Part shown: piece by piece, positions 22,458 to 59,269 of the stretch
Position numbering within the stretch: position 1 is the stretch's first letter
Layout: the number at the start of each line of letters is the position of its first letter
Source of the DNA: Henricia sp. BOLD:AAB3569
Taxonomy: Eukaryota > Echinodermata > Asteroidea > Spinulosida > Echinasteridae
Direction: 5' to 3'
Assembly (NCBI GenBank): GCA_037783545.1
Contig: JBBELK010000311.1
Coordinates: 496,001 to 560,000 of the forward strand
Length of the DNA: 64,000 nucleotides
The notes under the pieces: generated by a model
What the model was told of the DNA's origin: nothing
Database searches by the model: none
The model's input: the letters and a program-made list of their open reading frames with translations, nothing else
Translations under genes and position numbers: made by a program

Positions 22458-22524
22458 ATGAAAGCCGCGGGGATTTGCCTTCTGATGTCGTGGGCCGTTT
22501 TGACTGCCGGGGAAATCTGCAAAC
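22458..22524 (+). CDS. Exon 1: start codon and signal peptide
   Basis: Reads [18 protein letters not shown] then EICK, a short positive start, hydrophobic core and small residues before a likely cleavage near AG/E. The donor is C|gtatgt (one base carried over). The ATG is chosen because TGA at 22404 closes the frame upstream and exon 2 joins in phase to give CCT (Pro). Confidence 0.75.
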
Positions 22525-25500
22525 GTATGTGTGTTTGTTTGTTTATCCATTTGAAGACCACGACCACTGCACTCGATATAAATAACGCGGTCTAGTTTTA
22601 AACAGTAGGCCCACAGAGAACAGTTCTAGTTGTTTAATACGTCACTTGCCCTGGTGATATGTGGTTTTAAACACTAAGCGTGCAAGATATGCAATTACTA
22701 CCAAATGCTTTTCCTGAAAAAGCACACACACAAACGGTCGAGCGACTTTTTAGAAGCAGTGCCGTGGCAACTGAAAAATGTCACGCGCCCGGTTCAGCTC
22801 TCTGTATATGGTGCCTGAAAATAATCACTGTGGAATCGAAGAGATTTTGGATAAAGTGATTTATAGCAGTCAGTGTTGGAGAAAACCGGAGCTCAAGTAA
22901 CGTAATGAGTAACAAATACATTCATGATAATTTTTTTGCGGCGGCGGAAACGAAAATTGCCCATGCAGATCACTGTAATCTTAGAATTTAGCGATAGATA
23001 AATGCGGACTGATGACCGGTGGGCCAAGTATACTGGTCATCAGCAACATCCATGCTCTTCGTTTATAAGAAATTTTTGAATCAATGGGATTTTAACCAAA
23101 GCATGAACGAGAACATAATACATACGAGGACATAATAAATATAATTTCGGACTTATAGGTATATCAATGCATGCGTTAACATTAATCAGGATTTGCGAAA
23201 ACCCGATTATCTATTTTGAGATCATTTGTGATTCAGTATGTTAACCCGTCGAATTTATTTCGATTGGGGAATAAAATCAATTAACGATTCTTTCAAAATT
23301 TGGTTTTGTCAGAAATGTGTTTAAATCCACCTGAAAATCTTGATGATCTCATAGATGTTCCTGTACTGAATAAAATTATCAGTATCAGACCACTTGTACA
23401 CTTGTTCAACCATTGCACTAATCGGTGAAGTCGTAAAAACGAAAAGGTGCACTGGTGACTTTCTGGTGATTTTGGTGAATGATTTAGTTAGGCCTACCAC
23501 ATTGCTTCCTGCATGCAGGGGATGAAAAGGCGGCTAATGCCGAATTGTCGATGGTGTCAAAATACTGCTGGTAAATATAAAAGATCCAACAAGACAACAT
23601 GAGTACGATAAAGAGCGGTGTTGATGTCATGATGAAGTCTAAAAAGAGCTCGTTTTGTTTTATGGATGACTTTATTGATGACTGCCTCGCCGCGGCCACC
23701 TGGTATCAATTGGGAGTCATGTTAAGCATTTTAAGTCGCCGGATTATACCTGGACACTCGTCAATGATTTGAGCGTTCTGCAGTAGTTCCATCCATGGGC
23801 TTAAGTTGCGGCATTTCTCAGCTCAGCAGGAAACGGCGACTCTTTTTTTGCAAAGGAAGAATTGACAATTAAGTTTGATGGTCGGGATGTGAGTAAAGAT
23901 ATATATTTCTTCAACAGGCTTGTTGAGATATAGAGAGCATGTCTTAGGCAAGTTCTTAAATTTGGACATAGCTTATCAAAATGGGTCGGTGGAAGCTCAA
24001 TAAAATGACTTTTACAAGGTCAAGTACCTGAGGGCGATTCACCGAGTTTATACTTTGTAATGGATTACCCTGAAGAGCTTATAGCTCCGATACATTACCA
24101 GGTAAACACAATTAAATGGTGAGCGCGTAGCGCGAAGCCCTAACGGCGTGGGGTCCGGGGCCCGAAAGGCTCTGGAAAATGTTGGATTTTATCTTGATGC
24201 TCTGTGGTGCGATATCAAACAGCTATAAGCCCTTTGGACCCAATCATGCAAAGCAAAACCAGAAAATTAGGTAAATGTACCTTTGCACTACATGTAATTA
24301 AACAAATCCACAAAATGACTTATTCATTTTTCAATTTGTCTAACAGCTGTTGAGAGGCTGCAGGCCGTGGAGCAGTCTTACAAGATCAAGGCAAACCATG
24401 CCATGTTTGGTTTGCTTGGAGCCTGTCCTCCAGTTGGAGAACAGTTAGACGAGCTGCTTGTATACCAAATCACCGATGACAACTTACCAGGGCTTCACTT
24501 GATGGACGAGAGGACAGGCGAATTTAGATTTGTGTAAGATTCACAGAGTGTTTCCTTGCAGTAGCTACATGTATATTTTCAATCCTGTACACAATTTGGG
24601 GGCATGGTGTCGGATCTAGTGTAGAACCAGTAACTGATGTGACAACACACTTTGGTAGAGAGTTATGCAGTCAAATCAGACAGTAAAATAAAGTGATAAG
24701 CCATACAGGTTACATTCATTCAAAAGACAGACAGATCAAAAACCTGACGCAATGTACACATTGTGCCAAGAGCTTTTGGGAACAATACAGGAACATCTTG
24801 GCCACTTTTCATTTCCACAACTTGAGATTTAAATTAAGACACAATTTGCATTAATCAAATTGTCCATGTCAGGTTAGGAAATAGCCCCTATGATTTTTCA
24901 GCCACTGGCATATTTGAGACATAAAAACTTGTCTCGAGAGCAAGTACGCGCGTACATGTACATGATATGTGACTCCCTTTATACGTGCCACTATATATAT
25001 CTTAATTTTTTTTTCCATTTTAACAAAACCTGATTCCTTAAAAATTAAAAATAATTCCATTAAAATTCCCTGGATGTGTGAGACACAATGGGGGAACGAT
25101 GGAAAGAGGATACCCTCTGTCACATGTTGTTGCTCGAGTCACAAGTCAAGTCAAACTGTCTTCGAGTCCCAAGTCAAGTCAAGTCAAATGGCCTCCGAGT
25201 CCCAAGGCAAGTCAAGTCAAGTCGAGTATAGTATTTGTTGAAGCTAATTTCAGAATGAGTCTAAACCCTGAATCTTGCATTCATGTTGGGTATTTTTGTT
25301 GTTCTGGCCAACAATGTCCCATGTTAAAAGAAAGCGTTAGTTCTGAAAAACAATTTGGTGTGCAAAATGACAAAATAAATGCATAAAAGCTCAATTTTAT
25401 TGTTGGTAGACCCAAGTCAAAAATGTACATGTTCGAGGATTTTAGCTAGGTGGTAGGCTTATTTGTGTTTGTTGAACACATCATGTGGCTTTACATTCTA

Positions 25501-28500
25501 CTATTTAGCACAACTGGAGGCTTGTGTTCCATTAATAAAATATGGTTGATGGTTTATTAGCTTCAAACTTGGTAGTCTTTGTGAAAGACGGTCTAACGTT
25601 GCTTGGTTCGTGTGGACAGGGAACTAGTTTATGGGTGCTGGTTTAGTACCCTGTCCACACGGTGCAATGTCGACCGCGCAGTACACAAACCAAGCAACGT
25701 AAGACAGTCTTTCACAAAGACTACAAACTTGGCAGCCCTGAGCTCCAAGGCTGAATTGCGTTTGAATTAAGTACATAATTCACATACATGTACCAATTTA
25801 CAGGCAGGAATAAGCAACAAGTTACAAACAACAATACTATTAAAAAGTACAATATTGAATTTATGTCCTCATTTCTCTTTTTTGCCTATTATTAGGCCTC
25901 TTCATAATTTTGTAGGCGTTGTAAACTTCACCTACACAGTCACAGACAGCAATGGCAGAATCAGCCAGCCCACTCGAGTCACCATCTGCATCCGTAGTGA
26001 TCCCAATGTGCCCCAGCTGAACGTCCATGATGTAACATCTATTGAGGGAAGCTATGTACCCTTGGGCATAGAGGTCTCCATAGCCGAGGGTCATGTTGAT
26101 GGAAGCAGTGAGCGGTTGACAGTAGCGTTGTGCAATTGCAATGAGGCGTTCACATGCGAGAGGGACACAGGTTCGGAACCTGGCAGGTTTTAGTTTATCC
26201 CCTTCAGTAACAAGAATTTGGACAAAAAAAAGAAGTTCCTTTCAATAAATGTACACGTGATCGAAAGGATATACTTTTAAAGTTTATATTATCTTTCCAT
26301 GAATTGGATAAAGAGGTTGACTTTGATGCTGAAATAAATTTCTCAAGACTGCAATTGCATGAATTGGAAAGAACGGAAAGGTTGTTGAGACGGGTTTCAA
26401 AAATTCGACGATCCATTTTACCAGGGTCTACGGAATGCGAATTGACACCTTAGTTTGGGTACAAGAAGAGAAAAAGTCAAGACGACAATATTGTGGAAGA
26501 TCGTGTTCAAATGGTTAAAGCTGGCAGAAATCCTGGGGGTTGCTGTACAATGGGCCTAATAAGTTAATATTTATGGTGCTATTAAAATAAGATACCATAA
26601 AATAAGACAATTCTTATAACCACAGGTCGCTGCAACTGCATACTGACACCACCAGATGGTTGGGAATTTGCTGATGGATTGCATCGTCGTCTGTTGACCG
26701 ATGAGTTAACCAATCTTCCTACAACTGGACTACAAAACCTGACACTGAAGTAGGTCCAACTTGAGGCCAAATTTGTCAGGCAGTAATTTGTGAAAATTAA
26801 TAGAACCAATGTATATACTTAACGACACATGTTGGAATCGGGTAGCGGTATATTTCAAGTAAATATTCATCCATGCCATGGCTGCATCATAAATACGTGT
26901 ACACCATCAAGTCTAGTACATATAGGGTTAATTTTGCCCTACCCAACGTAACTTGATTAGCACTGCATGTGCTTCCCCAAAACACCATTAGAAAAACTTC
27001 ATAGCATGCTCGGTTGGGACTCGAATTAACGACCTCCTGCATACTAGGCAGACGTATTAACCACTCGACCACAGAGCTGGCTGGTGTTAATCATCCGGTT
27101 CAAATCAATTAGCAGCGGGTACTGCGACTAATGAGAGAATACGATTTGGTCTGCAGGATTGTTGAATTGGAATTCTGTCTTTCAACATAATTGGGTGAAC
27201 TGAGCTATACATAATTCCAGAAATAAATTGTGAAAGTACTAGAGATGTCCCAGCCCCCCCCCCCCAAAAGACCAGTGGTGTAAGGTCTTGTGATTTTGAG
27301 GGGGCCATTTCCAAGTCTATTTCACAAAATTACCAGACCTAGCATCACTAGACTTTTTATGGGGACATCTAAAGTCCAAGTTTTTGTTACTGCTCATGGA
27401 ACTGGATGACCTGAAGAGACGAATAAGAAGAATCAATGTCGCCCTTCTCAGGCAGAACAGAGCAGTGATCAGGCGTGCCTTATTTGGTGTTATGCTGAGC
27501 GTGCAAATCTGTGTACAGAACAAGATGGTCACGTGGAGGACTAAAAAGCTAGCTAAACTTTCCAAAAAGCTGATAGCAAAGAAAAGACATGTCAAATTTA
27601 CCTCTCATCATGCTCCTTGATCCTGTTTTGCATCTTCCATTTTTCCTCGCAAGTTAAATTTAGCTTTGTTTACAAAACTAACCAATGCTCAGTCAGGCGT
27701 AACATTCCCAAGATGATGACGACGTTAATGGGTAGGCCCTACCTAATTTGTTAATGTGAATCAATCATTTTTAGTTGCTTTGTCAGTTTTTTCCCACTGT
27801 TTCCCCCTTTTTCTTTTTTAACATATATTTTTGCCTGTAGTTTTAATGTAATAATGTACTGGCAATTCTGCTTATGGCAGCTAGTAGTACGTGAAATAAA
27901 CCATTAATAATAATTAATGAAAATATTTTTTAAAAACCTATGTCTACCGATATGTGTGAGCCAATTTTCTAAATGTAATACAATTTCCATTTTATCTACA
28001 ATTTTATGAGTGTGTACTTTTTTTCTGATACACCCTGTATAGGACTCAGCTATATTCTGCTGCTCAGCTGTGCCTGGATGTCCATGCAGTGAATTGGGAG
28101 ACAGCTACCAGTGTTCCTCTTACCACCACAAGCAAACTCCTTATCACCATTACACCTTCCCCGTCCCTGTCCCGTCCGGTCGTCCCCGACCGCGGGACAG
28201 CCAACACTACCCACAATGCCTTGCAGCTGGAAACATCCGAGGGACGGGTCATCCGTTTTGGCGGTCTGCGAGTGCGGGACAGTGATGACATGAAGGGAAT
28301 GTATCGGGTGCGGGTCTCTTTGGACAAAGGAGGCAGGCTGTGGGTTAAACAGGATGACAGCTCAGATGTTATATTTTTTCCAAAGGTAATAAGTTTCCCT
28401 GTTGTTGTGCATGCATTTGCACAAATGTTAATGTTTTGTATGCATTTATGATTTGTACCGATATTGGTAGGGGTGGGGGATCCGGAAGGGCTACACACGC

Positions 28501-31500
28501 CCCCTCATCCTATTTGCAGTGGTCCTGTTTGCAGTGCACAGCTGATTTTGGTTGTCTGAAAAGTGTAGTATGATAAAATATTAACTAGTCTGCTCTCAGT
28601 GGTACCACCATATTCTGTAAAATAAGGAACTATATATAGGCATACTGGAGTGGAATTTAACAAGCAGAAGCTATTCGCTTAGTATTTTAAATGAAATGTA
28701 GTGGTAACCTCCTGCGATGATATGGTGTGAGGTGAGGTCCAGTCACAAAATTAATTGGGACGGCTTGTGTTAATTTCACCACAATAAAGGAATCATTTTA
28801 TTTCCTCACTGACCCAGTAAATCAATCACAGGAATCAACAATGAATTACTCCTTATGACGATTGTAATTATTTGTAATTTATTATCACAATCAGATCAAA
28901 TCCCCCTAAATCCCAAACAGTAAAACACAAGGTCAGCAAATGCAATGCAAGAAACACATGTATTTTTATATCCACGATGCACAACGCGCATTCAGTGCGT
29001 GCGTGTCAGGCCTGCAAAGTACACGGGCAGAAGTCAACAATTTCCCCACGACAGTTGCTATGAACGTGCATGACAACGGCATGAGCGCGAAAGTTTCAGC
29101 GACAAAACGGCCCAACAAACTTACCCTTAGGTGCGCGAAATGTCAAAATTACACTCAGCACATGTTCTGTAGTTGTTCCGTCCCAAGTTATAAAGATGAA
29201 CCATGGTTATAAGCCTGGCAAATAATGCAAAATAAAGGGGACAACTTCTTCTCTTGCTGCAGAGGTTCACTCAAACAGTCGGAGAAAACGGGAAAAGGAT
29301 CCCGCGCTGTCATGTCATGTCGGCCGACTGGCTTGTCGGCCGACAAAATTGGCGTGATCGGTCTGTGTAAACACTTCATTTTGGCAGATCGACCGACAAA
29401 ACCAGGGGCCGATCAGTCTGACATGTCAGACTCCAGCCGGCCGATAAAATCGGTGTCGGGCTGTGTAAACAGCAAATCAAGCTGTGTAACCACGGCTTAA
29501 ATGTGATACCGATTACGTCAGCCGATAAACTTACGCAAAGCACGTGTAAATCACAATTTAAACTTGGCTGCTTTCGAGCGCTCGTCCCTGGTGCTCCCAG
29601 GTGGTGGAAACGTTACGTCACACACATGCTTACACACGCTTTCGGGCGAGCACCATGGAGCACCATGGAGCACCTGGTGCCGCGCTCGAAAGCAGCCCTA
29701 GTCATGTTGCCCAATAATTACGGCGCTCTGTGAGTGCCATCGTACTTGTACAGTATACCGAGATAATTTATCTTGCCAAGTTGACTTACGTCGACTTGGC
29801 GAGATAATTTATGTCGCAAAGTCAACCTCCTGAATTCAATAATTACCGTACGTCGACTTGGTAGAATAATTTGTTGCCAACACGAATTGACTTACATACT
29901 TATTTTACCAAGTCGGTCGACTTAGTAGATTTGGAAAGGCGACTTGGCAACCAAAATATCTCGCCAATAAATCGACTTCAGTCAACGATATTGATTTCGG
30001 GAAGTCAACTTGGCAATAATATCTCGCCAAGTCGACTTATTCCACGTTATAAGTCAACTCGTTCTTGGTATTTAAACAAGTGGGGTGGCCCTCACAGAGC
30101 GCCGTATGTAGGCACATGGGCGACAATCGGGCAGTGTAAACACTGCATGTTTTTCTCGAAATCGGCAAACAAATTCGGCCGACCAAATAAAACGGCCGAC
30201 TTAAACAAAAAATCGGTCTGTGTAAACACGGAATGAATCACTGCGCTTGTTCTCCCAAACAATCGTGGACGTTTTAGGGAGGTCTAAAGCAAGCCTCCCA
30301 CTGTGCGATTTTTGCCACGAATTTCCTACGAATTGGTACGATTATCGGAGACTGCCTATAGACTCTACACACAATCGTGCCCAATCGTACCCAATCGTAG
30401 GAAATTCGTGACAAAAATCGCACAGTGGGAGGCCCGCTTAAAGCGGGCCTCCCACTTTAACAAAGAGAACAATATCGTCCGCGATTGGCAAGCGAACGTC
30501 CGCGATTCGCTCCTGTACAAAACCAACGAGAGTAGGGAAAAATAGACTATGTCCAAACAAAAGAGGAACAAAGGGACGTCCGCGATTGTCAGTGAGTTCA
30601 CACCTGTGTGCACTGCGCGACGGGATTTAAATGTTTTGCTGAACTGCGTTATAAAACAATGTACGCCACACGCACTATTTCCACTGCGGACGGAAGGATC
30701 TGACCTTATAATAATAATAATAATAAGACATTTATATAGCGCCATACGTAAAAATTAACCTCTGGGCGCTTAACATCAAAACATCGTGTACATCATATAT
30801 AATAACAATTAATTTATGTAAAAAAGTCTAAAAAATATATATTAAATGTAAAAAATACAATAAAATAAAATACCATATAATACTCGTATATAGCAAATAG
30901 ATGATGTATAGCACATTATTCTACGCCTTAGTTGAAAAATATTTCTTAAAAAGATGTGTTTTCAGGGACGTCTTGAACTTTGCAACAGTATTTGAGCTGC
31001 GTATGTCTTGTGGAAGTCTGTTCCACATATGAGGGGCAATGACAGAGAATGCCCGACCGCCATAAGAAGATGCCCGTGGTTGAGGAGAGATGTGTTGTAG
31101 GAGATTCTGAGATGAAGAGCGAAGGCGTCGAACAGGAGAGTAAGGTGTAATCAAGTCTTGTATATATATTGGAGCCAAACCATGGATAGCTTTATATGTT
31201 ACAAGAAGTGTTTTATACTCTATTCTTTGAGACACGGGCAGCCAGTGCAGCTCCCGTAGAATCGGTGTGATGCTCTCATGACGTTTACTCAGACATACAA
31301 GTCTTGCCGCAGCATTTTGAAGACGTTGCAGTTTATTAATGTCACAGTCAGGAAGACCGACGAGCAAACTATTGGTGCCATCGATCCGAGAGGAAATAAA
31401 GGCATGCACAAGCTTTTCCGTAGATTGCTTGTCTAGATAAGATCGTATTTTCCCAATCTTGGAAAGGCAAGCCCATCCAGCCCGGCAGATGTTACTAATG

Positions 31501-49500: not shown

Positions 49501-52500
49501 GAGCCGTTCGGTGCCAATCATTTAGTCGTTGTCTGCTCAATATGTACACAGACTTTTTTTGAACGCGCTAAATGTAGTTAAAAAGTGGAATCAATTCCGA
49601 TTGGAATCGCAATTTATTTTGGAATTGGAGTTGACTCTGAAAATGGTGGAGTCGCCTGTATGTACATGTAACACCCAAACTGATTTCATTGATACATGTA
49701 TTGTGAAAGGAGTAGGATGCCATTTTCAACAAAGGTCCAACATAGATATTTTTGCAAAACACACTCCCATGAGGCATACAAAAGTAGGCTATGCTTTGTA
49801 TAGCACAATTTCTTGTGATATGTAGATTTGTAGAAGTTTAATACAGCATTTGTATTACTGCCATCAGTTGCAACTGTCCAGTCACATAACCCTCATCAAG
49901 TCAGCATCCATGGCAGGATAAGCACCATCAATATGGTACTGGAAGCTGAGAACATATGGTACCTGTCCGAACCTTGCCGGACAGACGAGGCAGAGGAGAG
50001 TGTGACAGAAAGGGTGATAGGGACCAATATCAGACTTGAGGTGAGACTTGCACGGGAAATGATATGAACGCAACATCTGGTATGGTGCCTAATCACCATT
50101 GAAATGAAACAACCAAACTTGGGATATGAGAAAATTTTAAGGGCCTTATCGGGATTCGAACCTAAGACCTCTGACTCACTGCATGGGCAAAGTAAATGCA
50201 TGCCATGCCGTGGAAACCAGCGCGAAGTGCGAGATGGTTTGCTTTTGTCAGTCGCGGTTGGAAAATAATCATCCTACGAAAACTATGTTACATAAGAAGG
50301 ATTTCTGGGTGTTGATATGGACCAGAGAATCTCTCAGATTTTCGCGTCTTTGCAGCGATAAAGAAATAATATCCGAAGAAAAACGGCACTATATTAAAGA
50401 AACCAACTAGTTGCATTCAAGTTGCTTCCTCAACTTAGCGCAGTGGGGAGGATAGGTGTGACGAGTCAGGGAAAACAAGGAAACAAGGTCAAACACGTGT
50501 CGACCCATTGGATGCCATCTTTATTTACTAACATATGATACATAATACAGCGCCAAACAGACGGTAAAGCGCATAGCCCAACATTTGGCCTCTTTTGTTA
50601 ATTTTAAACATTTTCAGTTAATTACGTGACATTTTGATGATTTTTGTTCACAATGACCATCGCAAAATTATTGTCAATGATGCTATATATCGCTACATTA
50701 TGTAAACAGTAAGCTGGTGTGTTCCTCTAAAATAGAAAAGCCGTTTCCTAAGCCACACAAGACTTTGTAGCTTTTAGTTTTACTTCTCTTAAAGAAACAG
50801 CAGCAAAACGGGACCTCCCAGTAAAGTGCGATTCTCAAATTATTTGAAACCCCAGAACCTCGACCGCACCCCCAGCTTCTCCCATAAAGAACGTACAATT
50901 TAGTTTGTGTACACAACCTATAATAGTCTGACAATATTTTATATTTTTGACAATGCCATTAGGTCATTCCGACACGTAATCCTGAAGGTGACTCTGCATA
51001 TCGTAGTATGCTTGTCAAAATCAAATGCACTCATCCAGTTGTCCAGCCAATCCAAGGTAAATTGCTTCACTAAGCTGAATTATTCAATCAATTACATATC
51101 TTGTTTGTTTCTCACTAGTTCAGGTGCGCAGGATTGCAGGTTACTTGGGGTCAGTACTTGCCGAGTTCCACTTGGACAAGTTTGATAAAAGGCTGTCCAT
51201 GACCCCGTTCTCACTAGAGAAATCGCTTCATTTGACGATGACTCAACGATGATTCGACGAAGAGTTTTCCTGATGTGAATTAACACACGCCTCTTTATTC
51301 AACGATGATTAGAATTGCTTCATTCGATGAAGCAAATAGCTTCATTCGATGAAGAAATCACTTCTGTCATTCGATGAAGCAAATTTGTAATGAGAACGCT
51401 CCCTTCGTTCGACGAAGCAATTTGGCAGGCCTAGTTGCACAAGCAAGTGTTGTTTTTGACGCACCACTGAAAAACCACACAGCGCGTCTAGACACGTGAC
51501 GCGCAAGTGTACGACGTCCCAGAGCTTCATTCGATCTTCGTTAGCGGTCGCTTATGTGTACGGTACCGCTCTTCATACGATCTTCGTTCGATCTTCGCTA
51601 AGTGATATGTGAACACAAGCTTTATTAACTAAAGATGATTAAATAATCTTCAATGCGATTTCTCTAGTGAGAACGGGGTTTTGATGTGTAGTCTCCAAAA
51701 AAAAAAAAATTGCTATTTTCTTAAAATATAAATTCTTGATCGGAACAGAGGTTTGTTGAATACAGTGAACTTGTGGATATCAAGGCACTGATTGATCAAT
51801 AACTTTCGAATCGTTCCGCTACAGTAATTTCGTCCAGCAATATGACATTTTCTGTTTCTGTGAGAATCCTGTAGTTATTAAGGGCTCCCAGGAAATTCAT
51901 TTTGTTGGGTTTTCAACCCGTTTTAAACTTGTGTGGGATGAGTTAACCTCCAGAGCTATGCGTCTCCTAAACACCCCTGCAAGTGGAAGATCGAGCTCAG
52001 GAATGCACTTAGAACAGAGTGATGCACCCTGCCTCATTGGGCTACGCAATGTGATGCAGATCTTCTCACAGGTAACCTCTGAATTATATAACTGACTTTC
52101 GTACGTTCTTTCACTGTAAATTCAATGATAGAAGAACAGCAGGACTGGTCCTCTTGGTCCACCTGGTCTGCATGGAATGAGTGCCAGCTTGAAGGAGGGG
52201 CGTGTAAACAAGAAATGCAGACAAGACAAAGGCAACTTGGCAGGCAGCGGATGGTTCAGGAGAGACCGTGTAGCTGTGGTAAGCAAGTCGGGCATTAGCA
52301 CGCAGAAGGGAGAAATGACGACCCGACAATTGTGATCAATGCATGTTTTCAAGGTTATTTTTTTACAAGCGATCCTGTTTTTCTGTGGTATTATTGGAAC
52401 TCAGACACCAAGGATTCCTCATCAAAAGCACCAATGGCACTGTAACTCAAAGCCTGAAGACATTTGTGAAAGAGATTTAGATGATTAATAAATGCTCAGT

Positions 52501-55500
52501 TTTAGAGATGGGAAAAAAATCCTTCCACACATGTACAGGGGAAACCCACCAAATAATTTGTTTCTCCATCATCAATTTTTGGCTCTGAATTCACCAACAG
52601 ATGGACAGCAGGACTTGTCAAATGGTGGCGAGAACTGGGCCTCATGGTCTGCTTGGTCTGCATGGAATGATTGCCAGCTTGATAATGAAGGAGGGGTGTG
52701 TGGACAGGGAATGCAGACAAGACAACGGCAACTTGGCATGCAGCAGATAAATCACGAGAGACCGTGCATGATTTGTGGTAAGCGAGTTGGTTACTGAGTA
52801 GATGGAAAAGACTGAGTGGAGTAAAAAGCTTCCAAAAATTAAAAACCATGGAATATACTTATACCATTAGGAATCAAAGTTACAAACTATACTTTTGCAA
52901 ATTTTTACTTAATTCTTTGTATACCTGTTAATGCATGGTGGGATTGTGAGGGATGTATCGGACATTATCGAACAGTGTGTTCAAAAATGACTATGTATTT
53001 GGTGGAAAGCTTGGTGTAATTACGTCACCTAGTAACCGTGGTAGTAAAACATGGCTGACAGTTTGGAATCGCGACGTGAGTACGAAGAAAAACACAGATT
53101 TATGACACAAAACACGGCGGAATAGGGCTGTAAATACAATTTGCTTAATCAATAGATGTCTGTGGGCATTGACAAAGTTTATTGCGGCACTTTAGGGCAA
53201 CTATTTTTGCATGCATGGCGCCGGCTTTATTTTGTATCCTGAGTCAAACGATAACAGTGTTTGTAAAGCACCACCTGGCAACAACCTTTGACCTGTGTTC
53301 CCAGAATTCAAAGTGAAACCCTGTGTCGTTCGTTTTGCACACCCTGTTACACGGTGTAAGCGTCTCGAACGCCCCTACTGTGTACGCGTAGGTACCGCTC
53401 TTCATACGATCTTCGTTAAAGTGATATGTGAAAGCACGCTTCATTAACTAACGATGATTAACTAATCTTCGTCGAACGAAGCGATTTCTCTAGTAAGAAC
53501 AGGGTCTTCGATGTGTAAAGTCTCCAAATTTGCTATTTTCTTAAAATATCAATTCCTGTTTGGAACAGAGGTTTATACAGTGAACTTGTTGATATCAATT
53601 TAGGCAATGATTGATCAATAACTTTCGAATTGTTCCGCTACAGTAATTTCGTCCAGCACTGAAATGTGACATTTTCTGTTTCTGTGAGAATCCTGTAGTT
53701 ATTATTATTAAGGGATCCCAGAAAATTCATTTTGTTGGGTTTTCAACCCGTTTTAAACTTGTGTGGGATGAGTTGACCTCTAGAGCTATGCGTCTCCCAA
53801 ACACCCCTGAAAGTGGAAGATCGAGCTCAGGAATGCACTTAAAACAGGGGGATGCACCCTGCCTCATTGGGCTACGCAATGTGATGCAGATCTTCTCACA
53901 GATAATTACCTCTGAATTATATAACTGACTTTCGTACGTTCTTTCACTGTAAATTCAATGATAGAAGAACAGCAGGACTGGTCTGCCTGGTCCTCTTGGT
54001 CTGCATGGAATGATTGCCAGCTTGAAGGAGGGGCGTGTAAACAAGAAATGCAGACAAGACAAAGGCAACTCGGCAGGCAGCGGATGATTCAGGAGAGACC
54101 GTGTAGCTGTGGTAAGCAAGTCGGGCATTAGCACGCAGAAGGGAGAAATCGACCCAACAATAATTGTGATTAATGCATGTATTCAAGTTTTTTTTTGTTT
54201 ACAAGCGATCCTGTTTTTCTGTGGTATTATTGGAACTCAGACACCAAGGATTCCTCATTAAAAGCACCAATGGCACTGTAACTCATTTGTAAGACATTTG
54301 TGAAAGAGATCTAGATGATTAATAAATGCTCAGTTTTAGAGATGGGAAAAAAATCCTTACACACATGTACAGGGGAAAGCCACCAAATAATTTGTTTCTC
54401 CAAGATCATCAATTTTTGGCTCTGAATTCACCAACAGATGGACAGCAGGACTTGTCAAATGGTGGGGAGAACTTGGCCTCATGGTCTGCTTGGTCTGCAT
54501 GGAATGATTGCCAGCTTGAAGGAGGGGTGTGTGGACAGGGAATGCAGACAAGACAACGGCAACTTGGCATGCAGCAGATAAATCAGGAGAGACCGTGCAT
54601 GATTTGTGGTAAGCGAGTTGGTTATTGAGTAGATGGAAAAGACTCATCAGTGGAGTAAAACGCTTCCAAAAATTAAAAACCATGGAATATACTTATACCA
54701 TTAGGAATCAAAGTTACAAACTATACTTTTGCAAATTTTTACTTGTTTTCTTTGTATACCTGTTAATGCATGGTGGCATTGTGAGGGATGTATCGGACAT
54801 TATCGAACAGTGTGTTAAAAAATGACTATGTATTTGGTGGAAAGCTTGGTGTAATTACGTCACCTAGTAACCGTGGTAGTAAAACATGGCTGACAGTTTG
54901 GAATCGCGACGCGAGTACGAAGAAAAACACAGATTTAATTATGACACAAAACACGGGGGAATAGGGCTGTAAATACATTTTGCTTAATCATTATAGATGT
55001 CTGTGGGCATTGACAAAGTTTATTGCGGCACTTTAGGGCAACTATTTTTGCGTGGCGCCGGCTTTATTTTTCATCGCGAGTCAAACGATAACGGTGTTTA
55101 TAAAGCACCACCCGGCAACAACCTTTGATCTGTGTTCCAATAATTCAAAGTGAAACCATGTGTCGTTCGTTTTGCATCTTCTGCAGGCTTCCCCCGGTGT
55201 AAACACCCCGTTACACGGTGTAAGCGTCTCGAACGCCCCTACTGTGTACGCGTAGGTACCGCTCTTCATACGATCTTCGTTAAGTGATATGTGAACGCAC
55301 GCTTCATTAACTAACGATGATTAACTAATCTTCGTCGAACGAAGCGATTTCTCTAGTGAGAACGGGGTCTTTGATGTGTAGTCTCCAAATTTGCTATTTT
55401 CTTAAAATATCAATTCCTGTTCGGAACAGAGGTTTGTTAAATACAGTGAACTTGTGGATATCAATTTAGGCACTGATTGATCAATAACCTTTGAATTGTT

Positions 55501-58494
55501 CCGCTACAGTAATTTCGTCCAGCAATGAAATGTGACATTTTCTGTTTCTGTGAGAATCCTGTAGTTATTAAGGGCTCCCAGAAAATTCATTTTGTTGGGT
55601 TTTCAACCCGTTTTAAACTTGTGTGGGATGAGTTGACCTCTAGAGCTATGCGTCTCCTAAACACCCCTGCAAGTGGAAGATCGAGCTCAGGAATGCACTT
55701 AAAACAGAGGGATGCACCCTGCCTCATTGGGCTACGCAATGTGATGCAGATCTTCTCACAGGTAACCTCTCAATTATATAACTGACTTTCGTACGTTCTT
55801 TCACTGTAAATTCAATGATAGAAGAACAGCAGGACTGGTCCTCTTGGTCCACCTGGTCTGCATGGAATGAGTGCCAGCTTGAAGGAGGGGCGTGTAAACA
55901 AGAAATGCAGACAAGACAAAGGCAACTTGGCAGGCAGCGGATGATTCAGGAGACACCGTGTAGCTGTGGTAAGCAAGTCGGGCATTAGCACGCAGAAGGG
56001 AGAAATCGACCCAACAATTGTGATTAATGCATGTATTCAAGGTTTTTTTATACAAGCGATCCTGTTTTTCTGTGGTATTATTGGAACTCGGACACCAAGG
56101 ATTCCTCATCAAAAGCACCAATGGCACTGTAACTCATTTGTAAGACATTTATGAAAGAGATCTAGTGCTCAGTTTTAGAGATGGGAGGAAAATCCTTACA
56201 CACATGTACAGGGGAACCCACCAAATAATTTGTTTCTCCATCATCAATTTTTGGCTCTGAATTCACCAACAGATGGACAGCAGGACTTGTCAAATGGTGG
56301 CGAGAACTGGGCCTCATGGTCTGCTTGGTCTGCATGGAATGATTGCCAGCTTGATAATGAAGGAGGGGTGTGTGGACAGGGAATGCAGACAAGACAACGG
56401 CAACTTGGCATGCAGCAGATAAATCATGAGAGACCGTGCATGATTTGTGGTAAGCGAGTTGGTTATTGAGTAGATGGAAAAGACTCAGTGGAGTAAAAAG
56501 CTTCCAAAAATTAAAAACCATGGAATATACTTATACCATTAAGAATCAAAGTTACAAACTATACGTTTGCATACTTGTTTTCTTCATATACCTGTTAATG
56601 CATGGTGGCATTGTGAGGGATGTATCGGACATTATCGAACAGTATGTTCAAAAATGACTATGTGTTTGGTACGTACTACAAAATTGGAAAATAAAATTTA
56701 TAAAATTAATAAAATACTTTCAGACTTGCACTTACCAGAGCATTTTGCAAGAATGCCGTCAGATGCCAATTGACAATGGTATAAGGCTTAAGGTGGGAAT
56801 AATATGAGCGATAATTGGTTTGCAGCGCAAGAAGCACATTACAGTGCATATAATTCTTTCTGACGTCTCAGTGCAGATTTCGTGAAATATAAACTGCAGT
56901 AATTATACTGCTGTACTGTTTTGAGCACTCGGGATGATCAAGCAAGTGCTGCCTTATGGTGGATGTGCATTCAGACTACGTGGCCATTTTGCAAGCATGT
57001 GAAGGCAGTTTGTGGGAAGCACATTGCTATGGATGATGGATGGAACATACATGCAGTCGGACAACTGCTGACATGTACGACCTATACATGTACGACTGAT
57101 ACAAAGTCCCGGCCATTATTCTCTGCATTGTGTATGCACATATGGTTATAGCGCTCTCTCGATATAAAGCTCAAGTTATTTCGGTCCCTTGAAGAGCGCT
57201 ATAATGAGAGTTTACTGTAGTACTAAGCTTCACAGATAACATTGCTAAGTTGCGTGGTATGTAGTTCGTCTTTACGGACAGCCTGAAATAATTACACTTG
57301 GCTCGACGGTGTATAGTAGGCACGCGTTACCGCTTTCTGCACTTTTTGTTCGCAAGTTTGCAATACCTTTCCTCTCAAAGGCAGTTGCAGATACAGGGGA
57401 TTTTTTTCGGTCCGTGGGGTCGCGGTTCATAGAGATGTGTGTGCGAATGTAGGGTATATGTGGGGTACCGTGGCCGAGTGGTTAGGGCCATTGACTCGCA
57501 ATCATGGGCAGATGGGTGAAAACTTGGGGTTGCGGGTTCGAATCCGGCTGCGGTACCTGTGCCCTTGGGCAAGGCACTCAACCACACTTGCTCCATCCTT
57601 CGGAAGGGATGTAAAGCCGTTGGTCCAGTGTGTTCGATAATGGTAACGCACTCTAAAGATCCCAGAGCATTCTTTCGTGAAGAGCAAGGGGATTCCCCGG
57701 TGTCTCTGGCCATTTCTAATTCTAATTCTTCATGGGTTTCCTCACGCTTACGAGTGACAGTGCAATGAGCACTATTGAGGAATCCTTGGTATGAATACCA
57801 GAAAGAAATAATAATAATAATAATATATAGCCGTTTTTGCATGGAATTAATTTGAATTTTTATCCAGCTTAAAGGAAGAGCTGCTGCCAGTACATTGATC
57901 AAGCTGATTTTGTACGGCCTATACACATCCCATCACCTGTCAACATAGGTTTGCAGTGTGGAATTGATAGGCAATTCCTCAACCAGAATGTCAAGGAACA
58001 TTGCGCCAGATATTCCACTATGAGTGAACTTTAGCACTTATTGGTCTGCATCAAGAAGCATGTTACAGTGCATGCCCTCAGCATTTTTAACATGTGATAT
58101 CCGCCTTTAGCCTCACACCACTGTCAATTTTTGTTCAAGACTTAAGCCGGGGTCACACGAATTACGACATCTCAATTTATCCCTAATTACGAAACTTTAC
58201 TCGTGTGACCCGGGCCCTTATTTTGTCTCACCTCAACAAAAACTTCCAGGATGTAAACCCACTGAGGAGACTATTGTTGATCCAAGTCCCGACATGACTG
58301 GCTGTACATCGGACGCCGCCGTTAAGCGCTGTCCTGCGGGATGTGAAGTCGACAGTCACCACCAGGAGATGCGGTCCTTTACCTGCGTCAGCCCTGGTGA
58401 TGTAGCCAAGGGTGGAGATGGCATGGTCCAACGAACAAAAAGTACTGAGGTGCATGGCAGCTGCATCTGTAGTAGTTGCCTCACATTCGGGTAA
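22458..58494 (+). CDS. Secreted chimeric cadherin-like/WAP/TSP1 protein (23 exons)
   Basis: This is a predicted secreted matrix or cell-surface protein of 1338 residues. I do not recognise a named orthologue. Order: signal peptide (1-about 18); cadherin-like/Tandem-95-type beta-sandwich modules (about 40-800) with blocks such as [20 protein letters not shown] and [19 protein letters not shown]; a W/P-rich insertion (about 392-470); a WAP domain with eight cysteines (802-846); the rest of the interrupted sandwich (847-935); six TSP1-like repeats (936-1257); and an eight-cysteine C-terminus (1258-1338). Each junction has AG/GT borders and matching phase, and the exon sum divides by three. The evidence for adhesion or matrix binding is domain-level inference. 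Exon 9 is uncertain because a LINE tail follows it. The protein is also close to full length without it, but the frame needs a phase-1/0 bridge there. Confidence 0.75.
22525..24346. other. Intron 1
   Basis: Non-coding. 24012-24100 repeats 22050-22150 (ttacaaggtcaagtacctga...). 24118-24200 carries gcgcgtagcgcgaagcccta, which recurs near 41483-41505. Confidence 0.6.
24347..24533 (+). CDS. Exon 2: start of cadherin-like module
   Basis: Acceptor tttgtctaacag, donor GT|gtaaga. Encodes [20 protein letters not shown] and then [20 protein letters not shown], the usual final strands of a Tandem-95/cadherin-like repeat. Phase 1 in, phase 2 out. Confidence 0.75.
24534..25895. other. Intron 2
   Basis: Non-coding. 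Contains a CAAGT-rich simple repeat (25138-25226) and a fold-back element (25572-25724). Confidence 0.6.
25572..25724. repeat. Fold-back element, GTAGTCTTTGTGAAAGAC ends
   Basis: GTAGTCTTTGTGAAAGAC at the left is matched by GTCTTTCACAAAGACTAC at the right. acgttgcttggtt and aaccaagcaacgt pair further in, as do gtggacaggg and ccctgtccac. Confidence 0.85.
25896..26170 (+). CDS. Exon 3: cadherin-like module core
   Basis: Acceptor cctattattag, donor ACAG|gttcgg. Joins exon 2 to read [20 protein letters not shown], a near-textbook Tandem-95 strand pair ending in TDSNG, then opens the next module ([20 protein letters not shown]) and a CNC/CERDTG cysteine cluster. The alternative acceptor at 25916 is out of phase with exon 2. 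Confidence 0.8.
26210..26565 (+). pseudogene. Intronic coding-like frame with one stop
   Basis: Within intron 3 one frame stays open for about 115 codons, apart from TAG at 26450-26452. It contains [20 protein letters not shown] and [20 protein letters not shown], which has a helical, coiled-coil-like look. It has no start codon and no acceptor in phase with the gene. I do not recognise the family. It may be a fragment of a mobile element or a captured gene. Confidence 0.35.
26626..26749 (+). CDS. Exon 4: linker in the cadherin-like region
   Basis: Acceptor ataaccacag, donor AA|gtaggt. Encodes [20 protein letters not shown] and [14 protein letters not shown]. Phase 1 in, phase 2 out, matching exons 3 and 5. 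Confidence 0.75.
26750..28042. other. Intron 4
   Basis: Contains a minus-strand tRNA-like relic (27004-27085) and a basic 78-codon frame (27384-27617) with no recognisable domain. Otherwise non-coding. Confidence 0.55.
27004..27085 (-). repeat. tRNA-like relic
   Basis: On the minus strand, tgtggtcgagtggttaa (A-box) is followed by ttcgagtcccaaccgagc (B-box). The size suits a tRNA with a longer variable arm, but acceptor pairing is poor. Confidence 0.5.
28043..28385 (+). CDS. Exon 5: beta-sandwich module, first half
   Basis: Acceptor ccctgtatag, donor AAG|gtaata. Begins [20 protein letters not shown] and ends in [19 protein letters not shown], the V-V-hydrophobic-x-G-x-L pattern of bacterial-type cadherin/Ig-like adhesin repeats. 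It is the largest exon. Phase 2 in, phase 0 out. Confidence 0.8.
29320..30236 (+). mobile_element. TTAA-type element, left copy
   Basis: Nearly the reverse complement of 31923-32738. Shared landmarks: tcggccgactggcttgtcgg, ctgacatgtcagactc, cacgtgctttgcgtaa-type bases and gggcagtgtaaacactgcat. The motif cggtctgtgtaaacac recurs at both ends. No open frame suggests a transposase, so it is non-autonomous. Confidence 0.75.
30288..30460. repeat. 173-bp fold-back MITE with TAA target duplication
   Basis: Ends carry GCCTCCCACTGTGCGATTTT in inverted orientation. The related sequence at 48573-48720 lacks this insert and has a single TAA where this copy has TAA on both sides. A 3-bp TAA duplication fits PIF/Harbinger-type elements. 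Confidence 0.75.
30700..31922 (-). mobile_element. 5'-truncated LINE, reverse transcriptase palm and C-terminus
   Basis: The 332-codon minus-strand frame (30921-31919) has [13 protein letters not shown], the catalytic YADD box in [23 protein letters not shown] and [14 protein letters not shown] followed by [11 protein letters not shown]. This is the CR1/L2-like order. The 3' end is followed by an ATT microsatellite and ggcgctatataaatgtctta-type bases. Fingers and endonuclease are absent, and the 5' break sits at the end of the right TTAA-type element. Confidence 0.85.
31923..32738 (-). mobile_element. TTAA-type element, right copy (intact ends)
   Basis: Begins TTAAGCCGTGTTTACACAGA and ends TCTGTGTAACCACGGCTTAA, giving clear terminal inverted repeats with TTAA at each tip. 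It is inverted relative to 29320-30236. It contains many gactTggcaagataa-like short repeats. No transposase frame is present. Confidence 0.8.
32989..33130 (+). CDS. Exon 6: beta-sandwich loop
   Basis: Acceptor ctgatcaatag, donor ATTG|gtgagt. Encodes [20 protein letters not shown] and ends KKRFSFIG, whose last G continues into exon 7. Phase 0 in, phase 1 out. Confidence 0.8.
33131..34094. other. Intron 6
   Basis: Holds a fold-back element (33440-33810). An open frame near 33930-34010 ([19 protein letters not shown]) has no acceptor in phase and I leave it out. Confidence 0.55.
33440..33810. repeat. Fold-back element, AGGGGGCATTTTGG family, copy 1
   Basis: Arms pair over most of the length: tctggtctcaaaataaaaga with its complement near 33771-33790, and aacatgcctttctaaaaacc with its complement near 33685-33705. 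A second copy is at 40277-40663. The outermost right end is missing here. Confidence 0.85.
34095..34266 (+). CDS. Exon 7: adhesin-type strand and start of W-rich insert
   Basis: Acceptor tactttcacag, donor TG|gtaatg. The junction with exon 6 reads [20 protein letters not shown], matching the G-x-L-x-x-IN-x-x-L-x-x-x-x-Y-x-P signature of bacterial-type cadherin-like repeats. It then enters a tryptophan/proline-rich stretch. Phase 1 in, phase 2 out. Confidence 0.85.
34267..36193. other. Intron 7
   Basis: Mostly featureless. Contains a hairpin (35362-35409, cacgtgacttttcggaac with its complement), a poly-C run (35717-35733) and a short copy of the repeat also seen at 2058-2090. Confidence 0.55.
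35362..35409. repeat. Perfect 18-bp-arm hairpin
   Basis: cacgtgacttttcggaac and gttccgaaaagtcacgtg flank a short AT-rich loop. It carries the E-box CACGTG at both ends. Confidence 0.7.
36194..36427 (+). CDS. Exon 8: W/P-rich insert and next strands
   Basis: Acceptor tttctcatgcag, donor GA|gtaagt. Starts [20 protein letters not shown], then [10 protein letters not shown], then returns to strand-like [13 protein letters not shown] and [16 protein letters not shown] is a possible N-glycosylation site. Phase 2 in, phase 2 out. Confidence 0.85.
36515..36542 (+). CDS. Exon 9 (tentative microexon)
   Basis: Acceptor tgtgccaccag, donor AGA|gtgaca. Encodes [10 protein letters not shown] across the junction. 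Exon 8 ends in phase 2 and exon 10 starts in phase 0, so at least one bridging exon is required, and this one fits. A longer reading (VTVFERETK) continues in frame into a LINE tail from about 36590. The donor at 36558 (C|gtgaga) is stronger but out of phase. Confidence 0.4.
36590..36835 (+). mobile_element. LINE 3' tail fragment
   Basis: Encodes [20 protein letters not shown] and [12 protein letters not shown], the usual end of non-LTR reverse transcriptase proteins, then a stop and a tail with gaacaaatattaaaaatg. It lies directly after the exon 9 sequence and in the same frame. Confidence 0.8.
36836..40821. other. Intron 9
   Basis: Contains a diverged relative of the fold-back at 59270-59717 (right end 39179-39201, core hairpin about 39045-39105), CpG-rich patches at 37255-37280 and 38690-38700, a GCGCGC run near 39630 and the fold-back at 40277-40663. 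No additional exon fits phase 1/0 convincingly. Confidence 0.5.
40277..40663. repeat. Fold-back element, AGGGGGCATTTTGG family, copy 2
   Basis: Both ends are present: AGGGGGCATTTTGGTAACAC and GTGTTGCAAAAATGCCCCCT. It is closely similar to 33440-33810. It ends about 160 bases before exon 10. Confidence 0.9.
40822..40959 (+). CDS. Exon 10: cysteine-bearing strand pair
   Basis: Acceptor tttaattaacag, donor GAG|gtgaga. Encodes [20 protein letters not shown], then [20 protein letters not shown]. Exactly 46 codons, phase 0 to 0. The other frames either hit stops or break the joins. Confidence 0.75.
40960..41784. other. Intron 10
   Basis: Contains pieces of a MITE with gtaaactctcgttataac near 41145 (relative at 57105-57215), a second CAGGGGCGGATCC end near 41408 and very long G runs at 41617-41680. 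Confidence 0.55.
41785..41986 (+). CDS. Exon 11: module opening
   Basis: Acceptor gaccacacag, donor ACTG|gtaatt. Encodes [20 protein letters not shown] and [20 protein letters not shown]. Phase 0 in, phase 1 out. Confidence 0.8.
42367..42866. repeat. GC-rich minisatellite, block 1
   Basis: Imperfect tandem units built from ggtacggcgcagggccggca and shorter variants. All frames are open over long spans, giving artificial Pro/Ala/Arg/Cys-rich frames on both strands. Confidence 0.9.
42998..43483. repeat. GC-rich minisatellite, block 2
   Basis: The same unit family as block 1, separated from it by 131 bases of unrelated, partly A-rich sequence. The array ends directly at the MITE at 43484. Confidence 0.9.
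43484..43646. repeat. Fold-back MITE, uninterrupted relative of 13127-13465
   Basis: Begins GCAGCCGATTTTATGAA and ends TTCGTGAAATCGGCTGC. At the position where the 13-kb copy has a nested insert this copy reads gaaaatggcata without interruption. Confidence 0.85.
43739..43996 (+). CDS. Exon 12: second adhesin-type module
   Basis: Acceptor ctttctttttag, donor ATAG|gtaatt. Encodes [40 protein letters not shown] and [11 protein letters not shown], the same strand order as exons 5-8. Phase 1 to 1. Confidence 0.85.
43997..45006. other. Intron 12
   Basis: Contains a tRNA-like/SINE-like stretch (44195-44330, gctagctctgtgaccctggttcaaatcc) and, at 44395-44690, an inverted copy of the sequence at 21040-21350. 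Confidence 0.55.
45007..45240 (+). CDS. Exon 13: end of module two, start of module three
   Basis: Acceptor attcacacacacag, donor ATAT|gtgagt. Encodes [20 protein letters not shown], then [20 protein letters not shown] and [20 protein letters not shown]. It stops in the middle of a sandwich fold, immediately before the WAP exon. Phase 1 to 1. Confidence 0.85.
45631..45800 (+). repeat. tRNA-derived SINE fragment
   Basis: gtaccatggccaagcggtct and gtgggttcgaatctacaggc resemble the A and B boxes of a class II tRNA, and ggcaaggcactttgcc follows. It is a relative of 57464-57830. Confidence 0.65.
45827..46395 (-). repeat. LTR (3' LTR on the minus strand)
   Basis: On the plus strand it reads TGTAACCGAGTCGGTGTACA to GGTCCGGTCACA. 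It is a close match to 47894-48461, with differences such as a few-base change near 45905-45915. Confidence 0.85.
46396..46405 (-). other. Polypurine tract
   Basis: The minus strand reads AGGGGGTGAG immediately before the TGTGACC start of the 3' LTR. Confidence 0.6.
47876..47891 (-). other. Primer binding site, tRNA-Ser
   Basis: The minus strand reads TGGCGTAGTCGGCAGG two bases after the 5' LTR. This is the complement of the CCTGCCGACTACG-CCA end known for animal serine tRNAs (recalled, not searched). Confidence 0.7.
47894..48461 (-). repeat. LTR (5' LTR on the minus strand)
   Basis: Starts TGTAACCGAGTCGGTGTACA and ends GGTCCGGTCACA on the plus strand, paired with 45827-46395. Confidence 0.85.
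48573..48720. repeat. Repeat related to 30241-30610, lacking its MITE
   Basis: Shares gcgcttgttctcccaaacaa, gactatgtccaaacaaaaga and gattgtcagtgagttcacac with the 30-kb copy. It lacks the fold-back and a second internal segment. Confidence 0.75.
48758..48892 (+). CDS. Exon 14: WAP four-disulfide domain
   Basis: Acceptor ttttactgcacag, donor CAAA|gtaaag. Encodes [20 protein letters not shown] and then [16 protein letters not shown]. Eight cysteines fall in WAP order (C...C...C...C...CC...C...C). Symmetrical phase 1 to 1, so it can be skipped or gained without shifting the frame. Confidence 0.85.
48893..49867. other. Intron 14
   Basis: Non-coding. Some inverted similarity (gaatcggaattgcgattcta near 49281 and ccgattggaatcgcaatt near 49597) suggests a decayed fold-back. 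Confidence 0.5.
49868..50040 (+). CDS. Exon 15: rest of the interrupted sandwich
   Basis: Acceptor ttactgccatcag, donor GAG|gtgaga. Encodes [20 protein letters not shown] and IWYLSEPC, the same G-x-I-x-x-IN-x-x-L-x-x-x-x-x-Y pattern as exon 7. Phase 1 in, phase 0 out. Confidence 0.85.
50041..50962. other. Intron 15
   Basis: Contains a minus-strand tRNA-like relic (50143-50200, ggttcgaatcccgataagg on that strand). Otherwise nothing I can name. Confidence 0.5.
50963..51056 (+). CDS. Exon 16: last sandwich strand
   Basis: Acceptor caatgccattag, donor CAAG|gtaaat. Encodes [20 protein letters not shown] and [11 protein letters not shown]. Phase 0 in, phase 1 out, leading straight into the TSP1 exons. 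Confidence 0.8.
51203..51678. repeat. MITE with perfect 24-bp ends
   Basis: CCCCGTTCTCACTAGAGAAA at the left (24 bases, to 51226) is mirrored exactly at 51655-51678. The interior repeats ttcattcgatgaagc in both directions. Its right end is also the left boundary of the triplicated TSP1 unit. Confidence 0.9.
52132..52278 (+). CDS. Exon 17: TSP1-like repeat A1
   Basis: Encodes [35 protein letters not shown] and ends CSCG. It has the W-x-x-W-x-x-W core and the R-x-R stretch of thrombospondin type-1 repeats, but only four cysteines. Acceptor caatgatag, donor TGTG|gtaagc, phase 1 to 1. Confidence 0.85.
52601..52777 (+). CDS. Exon 18: TSP1-like repeat B1
   Basis: Encodes [38 protein letters not shown] and CMICG. 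177 bases, phase 1 to 1. Acceptor ttcaccaacag, donor TGTG|gtaagc. Confidence 0.85.
52778..53964. other. Intron 18, repeat-unit spacer
   Basis: Carries ATGGCTGACAGTTTGGAATC followed by a gtgagt donor at about 53051-53080, the MITE right end and the orphan frame of copy 2. None is in phase with the gene. Confidence 0.6.
53965..54111 (+). CDS. Exon 19: TSP1-like repeat A2
   Basis: Nearly identical to exon 17 but with [13 protein letters not shown] in the tryptophan block. 147 bases, phase 1 to 1. Confidence 0.85.
54438..54608 (+). CDS. Exon 20: TSP1-like repeat B2
   Basis: 171 bases. It lacks the two codons (DN) found in exons 18 and 22 and has Leu for the first Trp ([12 protein letters not shown]). 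Phase 1 to 1. Confidence 0.85.
54609..55821. other. Intron 20, repeat-unit spacer
   Basis: The counterpart of intron 18. The ATGGCTGACAG segment (about 54884) has lost its GT donor (gcgagt). The orphan frame of copy 3 is at 55525-55785. Confidence 0.6.
55822..55968 (+). CDS. Exon 21: TSP1-like repeat A3
   Basis: Same as exon 17 apart from a few substitutions (for example QETPC in place of QERPC). 147 bases, phase 1 to 1. Confidence 0.85.
56273..56449 (+). CDS. Exon 22: TSP1-like repeat B3
   Basis: Essentially the same protein as exon 18. 177 bases, phase 1 to 1. The last G joins exon 23 to read MICGCKPTEE. Confidence 0.85.
56450..58249. other. Intron 22
   Basis: Contains a partial MITE (57105-57220, agcgctataatgagagttta) and a tRNA-derived SINE (57464-57830). 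Confidence 0.6.
57464..57830 (+). repeat. tRNA-derived SINE
   Basis: The head 57464-57557 folds like a class II tRNA: GGTACCG pairs with CGGTACC, the A-box reads tggccgagtggttaggg and the B-box gggttcgaatccggc. A tRNA-unrelated body follows (cttgggcaaggcactcaacc) and an AAT-rich tail ends near 57826. It has no pol III terminator directly after the head, so it is a SINE and not a free tRNA gene. Confidence 0.8.
58250..58494 (+). CDS. Exon 23: cysteine-rich C-terminus and stop
   Basis: Acceptor acaaaaacttccag. Encodes [47 protein letters not shown] and [13 protein letters not shown], then TAA. Spacing of GC, C-x-x-GC and C-x-C-x-x-C suggests a CTCK-like cystine knot, but this is tentative. The stop overlaps a possible donor (GG|gtaaaa). 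Splicing to 58592 would end the protein as QQEY. An ATTAAA at 58552 may serve as poly(A) signal. Confidence 0.7.
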
Positions 58495-59269
58495 AAAGAC
58501 ACATCGTAAAAATGATGAGTTAATGAGAATGGAAGATAATGCTCAAGGTTGATTAAAGTACAATCATGAAATTGAAATGTCATTGTATTGCAGACAGCAA
58601 GAATATTAACTTGTTTGATAGTGTTAGAAGGGAGAACATGAAATTCAAAATTATATTTTGGCTGAATCGTGGATATGATTCAAGTCAAAAACATGTTTAA
58701 GGGATAGAAAATGATCACAACGAGAGGAAAAATATGTTTCTACTTGTAATGATCTGACTGGTCACATGTGTTTACATGCTGCTGCTAAATAATATTTGTA
58801 AAATTTGAACTTTTAAATATACATGGCACATAACACTAAAAAGGTTATGCTGTTACAACAAATTTTAATATTACTGATTTACACAGGATAAAACATAGAA
58901 AAATTGCATTCAGTTTCAGAGATTAAATTTAAGAAATCGGGATTTAATAGGAAAATATATGAAATATCAAGAATTATATAACGCCCAAGTACATGTAGAT
59001 CCCTGTCATTTGATTGGATAGTAGGTCACATGGCATTAAATAATTTAACCATATAATGCTACGTCACGTCACCAACCGTACATTTTTGTTCCATACGATT
59101 TTTTCCATTGCACAGCGCGCGCACTGCATGCATTTTTACTGCAAGCGCGTGTTCGTGTACGCGCGTGACATTGCACGACGCTGAAGCAGACGAGTTGGAT
59201 TTGGTCATTGTGATGCGAGAGATGCCAGGGACTGGGGTCCAAGTACTTGTTCATATTCTCAGGCTGTCA

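Follow-up and report, generated by a model that had tools for sequence, protein, structure and literature searches.

A candidate gene at positions 22458-58494 of the window (the whole stretch of 64,000 nucleotides that we analyzed) appears to encode one secreted matrix or mucosal protein, built by exon shuffling. We put the probability of this reading, which is drawn from the sequence, at roughly 55%. A single animal gene would encode a modular protein of about 1,200 residues that is secreted and rich in disulfides. It would carry a leader that exports it from the cell, as judged from the leader itself, followed by an N-terminal stalk. The stalk would open with a bacterial-type sandwich domain (D1) and include a related domain (D4); D2, D3, and D5 look sandwich-like by eye. 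A WAP domain, on an exon of its own with phase 1-1, would lie between the two D5 exons. Six TSP1-like repeats, formed by triplication of a two-exon unit, and a cysteine-rich end would complete the protein. The domain families are known, and their combination looks unusual: we found no paper describing it in open-access text.

A candidate gene of 22 exons

We listed the stop-free frames, scored splice sites and codons, and then curated the exon chain by hand. The curated model has 22 exons and 1,237 amino acids, and runs from an ATG at 22458 to a stop codon at 58492-58494 (Table 1). An earlier note on this DNA had given the same start and end, and the model keeps them. It also keeps the signal peptide proposed there, as an ATG at 22458 with an 18-residue leader that was judged by hydrophobicity only. 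The note had counted 23 exons; we find 22, one of them a placeholder (29100-29130) and two of them weak (39861-39930 and 50963-51056). As the note had said, the phases are consistent: they agree along the entire chain. (Some splice sites were partly picked for phase, so this agreement is no independent proof.) A TATA-like sequence, TATAAAAT, is found near 22336, upstream of the start codon, and ATTAAA is found at 58552, shortly past the stop codon. Judged by eye, no open reading frame of at least 90 amino acids in the two 10-kb flanks extends the gene.

Table 1. Exons of the curated model and the triplicated segment, with the evidence for each.
Feature	Position	Strand	Evidence
Exon 1: start codon and hydrophobic leader, end phase 1	22458..22524	+	hydrophobicity; codon score 0.228, not significant
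Exon 2: D1 first half (Cadherin_5 / Big_9)	24347..24533	+	model, Pfam, NCBIfam, codon score
Exon 3: D1 second half and D2 start	25896..26170	+	model, Pfam, bacterial matches, codon score
Exon 4: D2 middle	26626..26749	+	codon score 0.060; without family match
Exon 5: D2 end and D3 start	28043..28385	+	model, codon score; without family match
X2, placeholder exon, phase 0 to phase 1 bridge	29100..29130	+	codon score 0.568 (chance level)
D3-by-eye exon, with the 16-residue block quoted in the earlier note	34095..34266	+	model, codon score; without family match
X3, weak exon	39861..39930	+	good splice sites; weak codon signal, 0.142
Exon, phase 0-0	40822..40959	+	model, codon score; without family match
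Exon leading into D4	41785..41986	+	model, codon score; without family match
D4 core exon (weak Cadherin_5)	43739..43996	+	Pfam, bacterial profile; codon score 0.137
Exon: D4 end and D5 first half (D5 by eye)	45007..45240	+	model, codon score
WAP exon, phase 1-1, between both D5 exons	48758..48892	+	Pfam, cysteine count, codon score
Exon: D5 second half (by eye)	49868..50040	+	model, codon score
Weak linking exon, D5 to TSP1-like array	50963..51056	+	model; codon score 0.155
Tandem triplication of two-exon unit, six TSP1-like exons	51578..56670	+	copies 91.6-92.9% identical
TSP1-like repeat 1a, phase 1-1	52132..52278	+	model, Pfam, copy comparison, codon score
TSP1-like repeat 1b, phase 1-1	52601..52777	+	model, Pfam, copy comparison, codon score
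TSP1-like repeat 2a, phase 1-1	53965..54111	+	model, Pfam, copy comparison
TSP1-like repeat 2b, phase 1-1	54438..54608	+	model, Pfam, copy comparison
TSP1-like repeat 3a, phase 1-1	55822..55968	+	model, Pfam, copy comparison
TSP1-like repeat 3b, phase 1-1	56273..56449	+	model, Pfam, copy comparison
Last exon: cysteine-rich end and stop codon	58250..58494	+	model, cysteine count, codon score

Overall, the gene looks real. We scored codons by a leave-one-out procedure, using the first 60 codons of longer exons and a background of 600 open segments. (The background excludes the exons, the TSP1-like array, and a minisatellite.) Scores were made for 18 exons, with copy 1 of the TSP1-like array representing all three copies, and 12 of the 18 score within the top 3% of that background. 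Outside the top 3% are the leader exon, the D2 exon (exon 4), the D4 core exon, X3, the linking exon at 50963-51056, and X2. The flanking phases (0 and 1) require some exon within 28386-34094; several candidates fit, and X2 is a placeholder. Because of this, and because X3 and 50963-51056 are weak, continuity at those three joins is a candidate only.

Several other exon choices were rejected. Automatic Viterbi gene chains had 57 or 109 exons and read much transposon and minisatellite sequence; hand curation was used instead. We dropped 35464-35544, which has a poor codon score (-0.5) and lies near a repeat (34777-34938, found again at 50563-50726), and 31067-31139, which is antisense to a LINE frame. 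We also rejected extending the D3 exon back into HNLTFTG, since these letters lie in the pyrimidine tract of the intron before a strong acceptor (9.6). (HNLTFTG does suit the domain pattern expected of D3.)

We consider it slightly better than an even bet that 22458-58494 is one continuous gene. A somewhat unlikely alternative is that the model merges two genes: a sandwich gene that extends from 22458 to about 50040, and a TSP1-like gene that starts before 52132 and ends at 58494. The sole bridge between these parts is the exon at 50963-51056, with its weak codon score (0.155) and a poor acceptor (1.9), and the first TSP1-like exon likewise has a poor acceptor (-0.3). Furthermore, a hydrophobic stretch follows 3 of the 44 ATGs in 50041-52131 (at 50200, 50653, and 51554). 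The ATG at 50653, between D5 and the TSP1-like array, begins a leader-like frame with a stop after 19 residues. The TSP1-like part may therefore have its own start, and the frame is a possible alternative first exon. Against a merger of two genes, the bridge exon fits exactly between phase 0 and phase 1 and has a strong donor (8.1), and none of the leader-like ATGs was shown to splice into the array.

Judged by its content, the window is animal DNA: it contains WAP and TSP1-like exons, a LINE-like reverse transcriptase frame, and many repeats, and the introns are long. The reverse transcriptase frame (30921-31922 on the minus strand; 333 amino acids; RVT_1, 54 bits) lies inside a large intron of the gene. 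Inverted copies that are 89.5-95.2% identical (29318-30231 and 31928-32711) flank the LINE frame, as if a single composite insertion had filled the intron. The intron before the WAP exon has a 0.57-kb direct repeat (45826-46395 and 47893-48461; 95.6% identical). A GC-rich minisatellite at 42446-43484, with units of 11 to 51 bases, has long open frames in several frames, which mislead codon scoring. Another repeat (33426-33812 and 40263-40663; 87-89%) occurs in both orientations at the second place and is possibly a foldback element. On the plus strand, 27300-27617 looks by eye like a decayed transposase tail (with no Pfam match), and frames at 15361-16743 resemble the gag-like part of a retrotransposon, which we take to be of the BEL/Pao type. 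(The frame at 16057-16743 reaches 21 bits for DUF1759, below the cut-off of 25.4.) Scans of the window with Rfam, at gathering thresholds, and for tRNAs found nothing.

Domains of the predicted protein

We then compared the model to Pfam (cut-offs in bits: Cadherin_5, 26.5; Big_9, 23.6; WAP, 20.8; TSP1_spondin, 41; TSP_1, 21.6). Cadherin_5, Big_9, WAP, and TSP1_spondin all pass. This agrees with the multi-family secreted protein proposed in the earlier note, with secretion predicted from the leader.

D1 is a solid sandwich domain. Cadherin_5 scores 34.2 bits for the whole model and 29.9 bits for D1 alone, and Big_9 scores 28.5 and 27.5 bits. Both alignments span the junction of exons 2 and 3. 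Without splicing, a piece of the exon 3 frame gives 15.4 bits for Cadherin_5 and 16.7 bits for Big_9, and the exon 2 frame has no match. The rise in the Cadherin_5 score from 15.4 to 29.9 bits when exons 2 and 3 are joined indicates that at least that splice is right. The signature of D1 runs from an FRFVP strand to a 10-residue block. When the five domains were scored separately with tandem-95 from NCBIfam, D1 had 33.7 bits and D4 had 11.9 bits; the whole-protein cut-off of 90 is not reached. The best PDB sequence match for D1-D3 is an RTX protein (36gk; E = 0.013), and it lies over D1.

For D4, the evidence is supportive. On its own it has a sub-threshold score of 13.7 bits for Cadherin_5 in Pfam. 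We also used a bacterial profile that was grown from bacterial loci with D1 as the seed. D4 scores 16.9 bits with this profile (best single stretch, 12.9), as compared to 5.7 bits for the best of 105 decoys. (D1 scores 35.4 bits, which is biased because D1 seeded the profile.) D2 and D3 score 0.1 and -0.8 bits, and D5 has no reported score. When we compared the domains to each other, the D1-D4 score was reached by 2 of 300 shuffles. The D1-D2 score was reached by 0 of 300 shuffles and is out of register, so it was not counted. For the other eight pairs, the score was reached by at least 30 of 300 shuffles, with no signal for D4-D5, D3-D4, or D3-D5.

D2, D3, and D5 have no Pfam family match and no support from the bacterial profile, and their sandwich-like appearance is by eye. 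The exons at 40822-40959 and 41785-41986 also have no Pfam family. Some matches to D2/D3 were read as chance: ubiquitin-conjugating enzymes (E = 0.03) and alphavirus nsP1 (E = 0.1) in PDB, and NADH dehydrogenase in NCBIfam (E = 0.004). Neither classical cadherin nor Cadherin_3 was listed for the whole model at E ≤ 10, in a search whose filters remove most matches with E above roughly 0.1.

The earlier note had described cadherin-like sandwiches of bacterial style. This stands for D1, which passes for both families, and is supported for D4, which beats all 105 decoys; for D2, D3, and D5 it has no statistical support. The bacterial flavor is borne out in the N-terminal sandwich, with a 25-residue passage in exons 2-3. 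It is not borne out in the 16-residue block that the note had quoted as bacterial-type, which matches no family in Pfam. (That block presumably resembles the signature of bacterial adhesin repeats.)

The WAP domain claimed earlier is above the Pfam cut-off both as a piece of the exon's frame (33.3 bits) and in the model (25.7 bits), and it has eight cysteines. D5 is without statistical support, so a WAP domain nested in a sandwich is hypothetical. In an unlikely alternative, the ordinary protein skips the WAP exon, which would be a cassette or stray exon, and no WAP domain is nested in a sandwich. Because the exon is symmetric (phase 1-1), skipping it would leave the frame intact. Also, an 81-base stretch (30537-30617 and 48644-48723, 95% identical) ends 34 bases upstream of the exon. 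But the WAP exon has unremarkable splice sites (4.9 and 3.5) and a good codon score (0.008), and it agrees with the exons on either side in strand and phase.

For the TSP1-like array, TSP1_spondin scores 64.6 bits for the whole model, over six stretches, and the six TSP1-like repeats that the earlier note had counted are found on six exons. TSP_1 just misses its cut-off, with 20.7 bits for the whole model, and repeats 1a and 1b, taken singly, are below the TSP1 cut-off. The best PDB match for repeats 1a and 1b together is an F-spondin repeat (1vex; E = 0.006). Canonical TSP1 repeats have six conserved cysteines. Each of the six repeats has four cysteines, so they fall outside this six-cysteine definition.

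The copies of the two-exon unit align at 92.9% identity over 1,443 columns and at 91.6% identity over 3,347 columns. Between copies 1 and 2, there are differences at 88 of 1,477 non-coding positions, 8 of 147 positions in exon a, and 3 of 171 positions in exon b; the two also differ in length by 6 bases, with the frame kept. In comparisons with copy 3, the differences are 2/147 and 8/147 for exon a and 1/177 and 3/171 for exon b. (The non-coding counts for copy 3, 280/1,435 and 264/1,474, are inflated because the copy was cut beyond the end of the repeat.) Pairs of exon a with exon b have dN of 0.13-0.15 and dS of 0.27-0.33, a contrast that amounts to mild constraint, over few sites. Two amino-acid changes separate repeat 1a from repeat 3a, without any silent change. 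The WAP exon, the six TSP1-like exons, and the entry to the last exon are all in phase 1, and exon shuffling would be expected to give symmetric 1-1 phases like those of the WAP and TSP1-like exons.

Of the 80 amino acids in the last exon, 8 are cysteines, in agreement with the cysteine-rich end described earlier. The CTCK family suggested for it was not found: the exon has no match to any Pfam family at E ≤ 10, nor any PDB sequence match.

Copy number, function, and bacterial likeness

We compared the first 883 residues to the organism's own genome (740.7 Mb). There were 22 matches at E ≤ 0.1, and 20 of these are the window's own exons, which lend no support to the model. The other two are weak matches to the WAP region (E = 0.04 and 0.06), on C428 and C922. 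A caveat is that the search scored only 25 candidates and may have missed distant relatives. For TSP_1, the genome gave 113 exon matches, with 150 scored out of 218 candidates, and none of the TSP_1 matches listed is on C311, the contig whose positions 496001-560000 make up the window.

Based on the families, the stalk would provide spacing and binding, the TSP1-like array could grip matrix or cell-surface glycans, and the WAP domain could inhibit proteases or act on microbes. The cysteine-rich end may join chains. That the protein functions in a secreted matrix, in mucus, or in a coat is our tentative suggestion, with a little less than even odds. Should a transcript bear out this model, an animal matrix protein would be making use of a kind of domain that is known mainly in bacterial adhesins. 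The gene would also be a clear case of exon shuffling, with symmetric 1-1 WAP and TSP1-like exons and a recently triplicated array, and one shuffled exon was possibly inserted inside another domain.

Among 118 bacterial pattern matches, 16 loci align to D1 and the start of D2, with 30-62% identity over 25-108 residues. (The E-values in this comparison are relative to the candidates only.) Similarly, 18 plasmid records match D1-D3 at E ≤ 1; two of them reach 1e-3, and the best is 8e-5. Some of the matching plasmid records are annotated as tandem-95 or VCBS proteins. There was no match to D4-D5 among the plasmid records.

D1 best fits bacterial families and matches these bacterial loci and plasmid records, yet it is very improbable that the N-terminal domain was recently acquired from bacteria or that the locus is bacterial contamination: an intron splits D1, which is in frame with the WAP and TSP1-like exons; the locus lies within a 784-kb contig of the 740.7 Mb genome (2,104 contigs); and the bacterial and plasmid matches are distant, with no plasmid match for D4-D5. 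In particular, the splitting of D1 by an intron and the modest extent and identity of the bacterial matches disfavor a recent transfer.

Returning to the reading of a single shuffled animal gene, we can sketch a more detailed history, which we regard as speculative and rather improbable as a whole. An adhesin sandwich of bacterial type might have reached the animal lineage through ancient transfer, or been inherited from an early shared stock, and been split by introns. A symmetric WAP exon might then have been placed in an intron within one sandwich, so that the WAP domain hangs from a loop, and a recently triplicated TSP1-like array fused on. The result would be a single-copy extracellular protein with an architecture that we know from nowhere else.

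Comparison with known systems

The closest systems for D1 are bacterial. An excerpt of PMC11573180 names Big_9 and Cadherin_5 among the domains found in huge extracellular proteins, to which Planctomycetota contribute the most. Both families are also in a table excerpted from PMC8877628, which studies Ig-like-fold proteins together with fibrillar adhesins of Vibrio. D1 resembles the Cadherin_5, Big_9, and tandem-95 repeats of bacterial adhesins in that it is above both Pfam cut-offs. Unlike in those adhesins, it is part of an animal gene that is split by introns, and its neighbors include WAP and TSP1-like domains. Also, instead of a tandem array of good matches, there is one solid and one supported domain.

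Among animals, FRAS1/FREM and CSPG4 are large matrix proteins with bacterial-like cadherin-type (CSPG) repeats. The candidate protein differs from these CSPG-repeat proteins in that Cadherin_3 is not listed among the matches for the whole model.

Like the WAP four-disulfide-core proteins, the candidate protein has one WAP domain above the cut-off with eight cysteines, but here this domain sits inside a far larger protein. Similarly, its TSP1-like repeats are of the F-spondin type in that TSP1_spondin is the best family, 1vex is the best PDB match, and each repeat has one 1-1 exon. They differ from F-spondin in having four cysteines per repeat, with TSP_1 just under its cut-off, and in that no other spondin family is listed for the whole model.
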